Source of the DNA: Oceanibaculum nanhaiense
GTDB taxonomy: Bacteria > Pseudomonadota > Alphaproteobacteria > Oceanibaculales > Oceanibaculaceae
Reading direction: 5' to 3'
Length of the DNA stretch: 64,000 nt
Assembly: GCF_002148795.1 (NCBI RefSeq)
Contig: NZ_MPOB01000001.1
Coordinates: 558,001-622,000, forward strand
The number at the start of each line of letters is the position of its first letter. The stretch's first letter is position 1. Position numbers and translations under genes: made by a program. Below, piece by piece: positions 24,021-26,701 of this stretch. A model generated the notes under the pieces. The model had not been told where the DNA came from, did not search any database, and worked only from the letters and a program-made list of their open reading frames with translations.

Positions 24021-24497
24021 TCAGGCGTGGCCGGCGCGCCGCAGTTTGTTGATCGCGAGATCGAGAGCGGACAGGAAGCTGGAACGATCCTTCGCGGAGA
24101 ACGGGCGCGGGCCGCTGGTGATCTGGCCGGCGGCGCGCAGGTCGGTCATCAGGTTGCGGGTCGCCAGCGCCATGCCGATGGCGGCCTCGCTGAACGGCTT
24201 GCCGTTCGGGCCAATAACCGTTGCGCCGGCCTTCACGCCACGGCTGGCCAGCGGCACGTCGGCGGTGACCACGATGTCGCCCGGCCCGGCGCGTTCGGCG
24301 ATCCAGTCGTCGGCGGCGTCGAATCCGTCGCTGACCACAATCCGGCTGAACAGCGGGTTCGGCGGCACGGCGATATAGTCATTGGCAACGATGATAACGG
24401 ATACGCCATAGCGTTCCGCCACGCGGTAGATTTCCGCCTTCACCGGGCAGGCGTCGGCATCGACAAGGATGCGGACAGGATTTTTCGGTTCGTTCAT
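24021..24497 (-). CDS. YaiI/YqxD family protein (DUF188)
   Basis: 158 residues, full length for the family. The N-terminus [20 protein letters not shown] carries the conserved acidic residues of this PIN-like nuclease fold, and [20 protein letters not shown] and [13 protein letters not shown] are the other family blocks. The cellular role is not known; nuclease activity is inferred from fold similarity. It lies 37 bp downstream of hemN on the same strand and may share its transcript. Confidence 0.92.
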
Positions 24498-24534
24498 ACC
24501 GCAGATATAGCGGCATGACGGCCCGGGGGCAAAG

Positions 24535-25881
24535 TCAGACGGCGCGGGAATGTTTCGCTTTACCGGTCGCGAGATAGGCGTCGAACATGCAGGCGATGCT
24601 GCGCATCAGCGGGCGGGCTTCCTCGGGCACGGTCAGAATATCGCCGTCAAGCTTGACCAGCCCGTCACCGGCCAGCGCCGCCAGGGCCGTGTGTTCGGCG
24701 TCGAGGTCCAGGGTCAGGCCGGCGGCCTGCTGCATGGCCGCCAGATCGACCTTCATGTGGCACATGATCTGTTCGATGATGGCGCGGCGCAGCCGGTCCT
24801 CCGGCGTCAGTTCGATGCCGCGCGCGACGGGCAGCCGGCCCTCTCCGATAGCCTTGCGGTAGTCCGGCATCGCCGTGACATTCTGGATATAGCCCTGCGG
24901 CAGCGCGCCGATGGCCGAGGCACCGAAGCCGATCAGCACCTCCGCCGGATCGACGGTGTAGCCCTGGAAATTGCGGTGCAGCCTTCCTTCTCGTAGTGCT
25001 GGTACCAGCGGATCGCTGTCCTTCGCGAAATGGTCGAGGCCGATGCGCGTATAGCCGGCTTCGACCAGCCGGTCGGCTATCGCCTGCTGCTGGCGGAAGC
25101 GTTCGTCACGGCCGGGCAGGGCATGGCCGGGGATCAGGTTCATATGCGGCTTCATATGCGGCACATGGGCATAGCCGAACACCGCCAGCCGGTCCGGCCG
25201 CAGCGGCAGGATGCATTCCACCGTGTGCAGCACGCGGGAAACCGTCTGGAACGGCAACCCGTACATCAGGTCGATATTGATGCGGTCCACGCCTTCCGCG
25301 CGCAGGGCGGCCATCGCCTCCGCCGTGCTGGACAGCGGCTGGATGCGGTTCACCGCCTCCTGCACCTGGCGGTTCACGTCCTGCACGCCGATGCTGGCGC
25401 GGTTCACGCCGATCTCGGCGAAGGCGCGCACCGTCTCGTATTGCAGGCCGCGCGGGTCGATCTCCACGGCGATCTCGGCATCCGGCGTACGGTCGAACAG
25501 GCCCCACACAAAATCGCCCAGCCGCCTTATATCGTCGGGCGACAGCATGGTGGGCGATCCGCCGCCGAAATGCATGTGGCTGACGGTGCGGCGGCCCAGC
25601 TTTTCGGCGACCAGGGCGATCTCGCGCTTCAGCAACTCGAAATAGGTCGATACCGGCTCGTAGCGGTTCACCACGCGGGTGTTGCAACCGCAGAACCAGC
25701 ACAGGCTGTCGCAGAACGGGATATGGAAATAGAGCGACAGCGGCAGGGCCGGGTCGAGCGCCTCCAGCCAGCGCCCATAGGCAGCGGCGTCGATGCCGGC
25801 ATGGAAATGCGGCGCCGTCGGATAGCTGGTATAGCGCGGCACCGGCTGGTCGTATTTTGCAAGCAGATCAGGCGTCATCAT
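24535..25881 (-). CDS. hemN: Oxygen-independent coproporphyrinogen III oxidase (radical SAM)
   Basis: 448 residues, standard HemN length. The radical-SAM cluster site reads [16 protein letters not shown] (CxxxCxxC plus the extra Cys), followed by HFGGGSPT and EIDPRG. The N-terminus [18 protein letters not shown] is diagnostic of HemN rather than HemW. It converts coproporphyrinogen III to protoporphyrinogen IX without oxygen in the cytoplasm. The ATG at 25881 (ATGATG) has no Shine-Dalgarno, but a -10-like TAAATT and an FNR site are placed as if transcription starts at the ATG itself. Followed by yaiI. Confidence 0.95.
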
Positions 25882-25929
25882 GGCCCGAATTTACATCGGC
25901 CGGCTGCCGCGAACCTTGACCTGGATCAA
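25882..25929 (-). promoter_or_regulatory. FNR/FixK-type hemN promoter
   Basis: On the hemN strand the site TTGAT-CCAG-GTCAA (25916-25929) matches the FNR consensus TTGAT-N4-ATCAA with one mismatch. Its centre is exactly 41.5 bp from the A of the hemN ATG. TAAATT at 25888-25893 occupies -12 to -7 on the same numbering. This is class II FNR activation geometry with the start of transcription at the start codon. Low-oxygen induction of hemN is the expected outcome. Confidence 0.75.
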
Positions 25930-26065
25930 AGCTTATCGGGGGCAGGCCAAGGGGGCGGGTCTTGGCCGGCGGCGCGGGGACAGGCATGCAGGGCGTCTAT
26001 CGGGATGCCGGCGGCTATGCCATTCTCGGGCGTGAGTGAATGCTGCTGATCGGGGGACGCCGGAC

Positions 26066-26701
26066 ATGACGCTGGAACATTGGCTGATCTATCTGGTGGC
26101 GGCGTTCGGCCTGTCGCTGACGCCGGGGCCGAACGGGCTGCTGGCGCTGACCCATGGCATGCGCTTCGGGCTGCGCCGCTCGGTCGCCACGCTGCTGGGC
26201 GGTGTCGTGGGCTTCCTGCTGCTGATCGCGGTGTCGATGGCGGGGCTGGGCGCGCTGCTGGCCGCCTCGGAGCAGGCCTTCACCATCGCGAAATGGCTGG
26301 GTGCGGCTTATCTCGTCTATCTCGGCATCCGCACCTGGCGCGCGCCGGTGACGGCCCCGGTGCGGGCGGAGAACCTGCCGGATAGCGGCGGGCGGCGGGA
26401 AGGGCCGGCGGCGCTGTTCCTGCAAGGCTTCCTGGTCGCGACCTCGAACCCGAAGGCGCTGATCTTCTTCGCGGCCTTCCTGCCGCAATTCATGGTGCCG
26501 GGGGTCTCGCTGCCGCTGCAGTTCGTGATCCTGGGCGGCACCTTCGCCATTGTCGAATTCTGCTTCGAGCTGGTATTGGCCGGGGCGGCGCAACGCATCG
26601 CGCCCTGGCTCTACCGCCACGGGAAAATGGTGAACCGCGCGGCCGGCGCCACCTTCATCGGCATCGGCGGCGTGCTGGCGACAGCCAACCGCGCGGTGTG
26701 A
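26066..26701 (+). CDS. LysE/RhtB family amino-acid exporter
   Basis: 211 residues with five to six membrane helices. The N-terminus contains AAFGLSLTPGPNGLLALTHGM, the TPGP motif of the LysE/RhtB superfamily, and near residue 127 FLVATSNPKALIFFAAFLPQF is the second conserved block. It exports amino acids or related metabolites by proton exchange; the substrate is not predictable. The ATG at 26066 is chosen over an in-frame GTG at 26036 for its family-like N-terminus. It ends at the edge of a region of different composition. Confidence 0.88.
   Translation: MTLEHWLIYLVAAFGLSLTPGPNGLLALTHGMRFGLRRSVATLLGGVVGFLLLIAVSMAGLGALLAASEQAFTIAKWLGAAYLVYLGIRTWRAPVTAPVRAENLPDSGGRREGPAALFLQGFLVATSNPKALIFFAAFLPQFMVPGVSLPLQFVILGGTFAIVEFCFELVLAGAAQRIAPWLYRHGKMVNRAAGATFIGIGGVLATANRAV

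Follow-up and report, generated by a model that had tools for sequence, protein, structure and literature searches.

The oxygen-independent coproporphyrinogen III dehydrogenase gene, hemN, of Oceanibaculum nanhaiense is very probably expressed as a leaderless, FNR-activated mRNA from a class II FNR promoter that is fused to its start codon. The gene was examined within a 64-kb stretch of DNA (the window), where it occupies positions 24535..25881 of the minus strand and encodes 448 amino acids; its score of 445 bits against TIGR00538 lies above the cut-off of 324.95. Read on the hemN strand, the start junction consists of an FNR-type site, TTGATCCAGGTCAA (25916..25929, minus strand), which matches 9 of the 10 bases of the consensus TTGAT-N4-ATCAA, followed by 22 bases, the -10 hexamer TAAATT (25888..25893, minus strand; 4 of 6 matches to TATAAT), the six bases CGGGCC, and the initiator ATG (25879..25881, minus strand), directly after which lies a second ATG (25876-25878, minus strand). 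The original prediction placed the center of the site 41.5 bp from the A of the hemN ATG, TAAATT at -12 to -7 on the same count, and no Shine-Dalgarno (SD) sequence before the ATGATG. Each of these readings was confirmed; the center falls at 25922.5 relative to the A at 25881, the hexamer spans 25893-25888, and no SD core (GGAG, GAGG or AGGA) was found between -16 and -4. From this geometry, and from the pyrimidine that precedes the A, we infer that transcription starts at position 25881, give or take about 2 nt. The start codon of hemN is AUG, as a leaderless mRNA requires.

The codons ahead of the ATG read TAA ATT CGG GCC, and with the TAA (25891-25893) in frame 12 nt before the ATG, inside the -10 box itself, no ATG, GTG or TTG start is possible upstream. 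The upstream neighbor, a LysE/RhtB-type efflux gene (26036..26701, plus strand; start at GTG 26036 or ATG 26066; best model PRK10520 at 150.6 bits, below the cut-off of 209), is divergent, and hence no read-through reaches hemN here from a same-strand upstream gene; the gap between the two genes is only 154-184 bp. A crude scan of 25800-26150 for sigma-70-like promoters returned none, the proposed hemN promoter, which has no -35 box, being likewise unlisted, and an Rfam search over 24300-26700 gave no match. Starts lying elsewhere, which had been named in advance as evidence against a leaderless hemN mRNA, were thus not encountered, either as an upstream start codon or as a promoter in the scanned interval. 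The further proposal that this is a class II FNR promoter whose mRNA is predicted to start at or next to the AUG gained support from the geometry itself, from comparison across relatives, and from the presence of an Fnr/FixK-type gene in the genome.

The hemN site is the sole strict match to TTGAYNNNNRTCAA in the window, for which shuffling gave an expectation of 0.04 (4 of 100 shuffles contained one). Genome-wide, 19 strict sites were found versus 3 for the pattern read backwards, and two of the 19 lie exactly 41.5 bp before the ATG of an open reading frame of at least 100 amino acids: that of hemN and that of thymidine phosphorylase (L095/L192; G000:C7:73277-74740, minus strand; NF003338, TIGR02645). 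In the latter, the site at -41.5 is followed by TAGTTT, six bases and the ATG, again with no SD core. The same geometry was seen for thymidine phosphorylase of the sister genome (G001, L193) with its site at -42.5, so that it occurs with an ATG in 2 of 24 loci; in a further locus (L194) a GTG stands 41.5 bp from a poor site, and the other 21 are without the geometry. Given its absence from the other loci examined, the thymidine phosphorylase case is local to the genus. Elsewhere, contigs C3, C4, C17, C27, C28 and others of genome G083 carry many near-identical, dispersed copies of an element that starts with TTGATCGCTATCAATAAG and continues with a GC-rich inverted repeat; it fits the FNR pattern but resembles a repeat family.

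The spacing at hemN was followed in relatives with the start codon chosen blind to the site, by taking the closest ATG that lies 11 residues or more ahead of the conserved YTSYP motif, together with any adjoining ATG. Searches of the family and order reached only four genomes, all of one genus, and one of these (G002) is without hemN by the threshold used. The sister genome keeps the spacing of 41.5 bp, and weak -10 boxes are seen within the genus, the sister having TAGCGT and the third species CCATGA. A cultivable relative, Rhodovibrio sodomensis (L008), likewise shows a spacing of 41.5 bp, with a less certain start codon. A nearest-relative sample of 82 sequences, comprising the best 80 of 461 relatives together with the window and the sister, had a site in 76; 21 of these were located 40.5-43.5 bp before the ATG (the short class), two at 45.5, none at 46-50 and none below 40. 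When this sample was clustered at 70% identity, 15 of 37 clusters belonged to the short class. As the set leans to near relatives, an even draw was made of 191 Alphaproteobacteria genomes, 71 of which have hemN at the threshold used; these provided 73 matches, and 66 could be scored. Among the unscored matches were one partial gene and six without the start motif, and a looser motif rescued two of the six, neither of them of the short class (L185 has no site, and that of L190 is at -79.5).

A site was present before 45 of the 66 scored hemN genes and absent from 21. The distances are two-peaked: 25 of the 45 are of the short class (2 at 40.5, 9 at 41.5, 10 at 42.5 and 4 at 43.5 bp), and the other 20 comprise one poor site at 46.5 and 19 sites at 60.5 or beyond, none being closer than 40.5. 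All eight core bases are present in 22 of the 25 short-class sites and seven of eight in the remaining three (L122, L130 and L139), and 18 of the 48 scored families contain the class. Choosing the nearest site instead placed 27 of 45 in the short class, while four permuted motifs produced 12 sites in total, one of them in the 40.5-43.5 zone. A class-wide pattern search for site-to-ATG distances in 96 genomes was also made, but many of its listed matches were chance-like and it was not counted. Outside the class, within the same phylum, a hand-picked sample of 40 loci, in which each of the 26 families with a match had one or more loci, included 17 hemN genes with a site, and three of these, for which the start codons are less sure, show the short spacing (L265, L266 and L285, at -41.5 or -42.5). 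It may be that the short arrangement has evolved repeatedly.

Signals that had played no part in the grouping were then pooled across promoters. Forty-two distinct short-class promoters, that of the window included, were aligned on the site with +1 set at its center plus 41.5, and a -10 signal emerged at the class II distance (A-11 in 27, T-7 in 23, A-9 in 18 and T-10 in 17 of the 42). This signal was weaker when the same promoters were aligned on the ATG; as far as the data go, it would appear that the position of the promoter is fixed relative to the site and that it is the ATG that moves. The long class aligned on the site presented A-11 in 36 of 52 promoters and no clear T-7 (15 of 52), many of these rows being near-copies. 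A pyrimidine precedes the ATG in 35 of the 42 short-class promoters, and CCC does so in all four distinct promoters with a spacing of 43.5, which favors a transcription start at the A. An SD core was found in 0 of 42 short-class versus 18 of 52 long-class promoters, although in the former the -10 box stands where an SD sequence would lie, which in part dictates its absence.

This short geometry is not general among the FNR targets examined. With ccoN, another such target, one of the 24 loci that have a site showed an in-frame ATG at the short distance, where any in-frame ATG was counted because ccoN starts are uncertain; the examination covered 30 loci from the 80 genomes that had a match, and three open frames that were taken (>700 amino acids) may be wrong. 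Comparison with the 25 of 45 for hemN gave a Fisher p of 1.6e-5, which serves as a guide only since the rows are related. A tree of 82 HemN proteins called for at least nine changes between the short and long classes, three of them forced by well-supported branches, and on this tree the two arrangements interconvert. The HemN of one record titled Saccharospirillum (L026, NZ_MIES01000020.1) grouped with those of Thalassospira with full support, suggesting either gene transfer or a mislabelled record.

A candidate for the activator is encoded in the genome. This Fnr/FixK-family protein (L096) has a C-x2-C-x7-C motif near its N-terminus, a distal cysteine that aligns with that of a solved FNR, and a recognition helix similar to that of FNR; in the alignment its third cysteine falls two residues away from the FNR column, and its scores are under the curated cut-offs (172.1 of 300 for FnrL and 146.8 of 228 for Fnr). 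Its cysteines presumably hold an oxygen-sensing cluster, and an Fnr protein is predicted to bind the hemN site. Two further Crp-type proteins of the genome give full helix-turn-helix matches, making three, and the gene of one of the three adjoins an FNR-type site near a gene that, from its sequence, we take to be nitrate-transporter-like. It is conceivable, if unlikely, that another Crp-type regulator, of the Dnr/NnrR or FixK type, acts at the hemN site, in which case the mRNA would still be leaderless and the signal possibly nitric oxide or an indirect effect of low oxygen. Sites for Dnr and Fnr do overlap in Dinoroseobacter, as described in the available passages of one study (PMC5398030). 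Against this, both the cysteines and the recognition helix of L096 are FNR-like, and hemN is reported as a target within the FnrN/FixK regulon of Alphaproteobacteria (PMC4999443, in the part available).

It is less probable still, and rather improbable overall, that the main hemN transcript is a leadered mRNA without an SD sequence, made from an FNR-independent promoter further upstream, with the FNR site acting in repression or as part of a minor promoter. Precedents are on record in the accessible portions of two mapping studies; roughly one in two leaderless units of Zymomonas has an upstream promoter as well (PMC7566282), and 59 of 171 leaderless starts of Sinorhizobium meliloti co-occur with another start (PMC3616915). 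In addition, hemN of the sister genome carries GGAGGG at -20 to -15, upstream of its -10 box, which could be the ribosome site of a leadered transcript. However, the gap to the divergent gene, at 154-184 bp, is short and the simple scan found no promoter there, and a leadered transcript provides no reason for a wall at 40.5-43.5 bp accompanied by a -10 signal that is fixed to the site. It is scarcely credible that the site acts for the divergent efflux gene, with its distance from hemN being due to chance. The near-palindromic site does lie between two divergent genes, and bidirectional FnrL/Dnr sites are known from the passages available on Dinoroseobacter (PMC5398030), but it is 113.5 or 143.5 bp from the possible starts of the efflux gene, the plus strand has no -10-like hexamer at the class II distance, and the spacing seen at hemN is found again in other families.

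If a class II FNR promoter adjoins the start codon in this way, transcription of hemN would begin at the A of the ATG or no more than about 2 nt from it. In the absence of oxygen, an activator of the Fnr/FixK family would bind the site at -41.5 and recruit sigma-70 RNA polymerase to the weak -10 box; as there is no -35 box, transcription of hemN without the activator is proposed to be low. The mRNA would then begin with AUG, and its translation would be expected to follow leaderless initiation instead of the SD route. Any coupling of oxygen control to a special translation mode through leaderlessness is speculative. Doubtful, too, is the broader proposal that the fusion of promoter and start codon, widespread as it is (18 of 48 families; 3 of 17 in the outgroup), has been kept by selection on hemN in particular, with leaderless initiation imposing a second control atop that by oxygen, for example through the state of ribosomes and initiation factors at low energy. 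Were the reading of the window correct, hemN would represent a candidate leaderless gene that is conserved and under oxygen control, and its natural leadered orthologues would serve as controls, making the role of leaderless initiation in a physiological switch directly testable. A working rule is suggested for alphaproteobacterial hemN: where an FNR-type site precedes an ATG by 41-43 bp, that ATG is the true start codon and the mRNA is leaderless.

Both leaderless mRNAs and the control of hemN by FNR have been described before. Of the starts mapped in Alphaproteobacteria, a few percent are leaderless according to the parts available of five studies (PMC3616915, PMC4842269, PMC7566282, PMC9320726, PMC9549626), with 171 in S. 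meliloti (PMC3616915), 192 located exactly at the start codon in Bradyrhizobium japonicum (PMC4842269), and 119 of 2675 in Zymomonas mobilis (PMC7566282). For Magnetospirillum, 5% leaderless 5'-UTRs are stated in the text available, and the accompanying counts of 51/1522 and 60/1534 correspond to 3.4% and 3.9% (PMC9549626). The name hemN does not occur in the main text of any of these five papers, nor the term leaderless in PMC4999443, nor FNR in PMC7566282, and a search covering mainly open-access papers found none joining leaderless mRNA with FNR-controlled hemN; the one paper that turned up for leaderless mRNA together with hemN concerned M. tuberculosis methylomes, and none turned up for leaderless mRNA together with FNR. 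A leaderless hemN may stand unremarked in existing start-site tables.

Three known systems invite comparison. Class II promoters of the FNR/FnrL/FixK kind resemble that of the window's hemN in type of site, in spacing and in having hemN as a target; in Dinoroseobacter shibae, FnrL/Dnr sites are located 39.5-43.5 bp before starts mapped by RNA-seq, and FnrL activates hemN (PMC5398030). However, the passages available from these reports do not equate the transcription start with the start codon (PMC5398030, PMC4999443). In Zymomonas, the oxygen-sensitive Fe-S enzyme IspG is, like HemN, of an oxygen-sensitive type, and its gene has a leaderless start, but unlike the reading proposed for hemN, that start is described in the accessible text as being used in all conditions, with an extra start with a 63-nt leader in aerobic samples only (PMC7566282). 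The leaderless mRNAs reported in the available sections on Sinorhizobium, Bradyrhizobium, Zymomonas, Methylorubrum and Magnetospirillum have their AUG at or a few nucleotides from the 5' end, as is predicted for hemN; their 5' ends are mapped, whereas that of hemN in the window is predicted and its promoter carries an FNR site. The conservation of the short spacing at hemN is unexpectedly wide and sharp.
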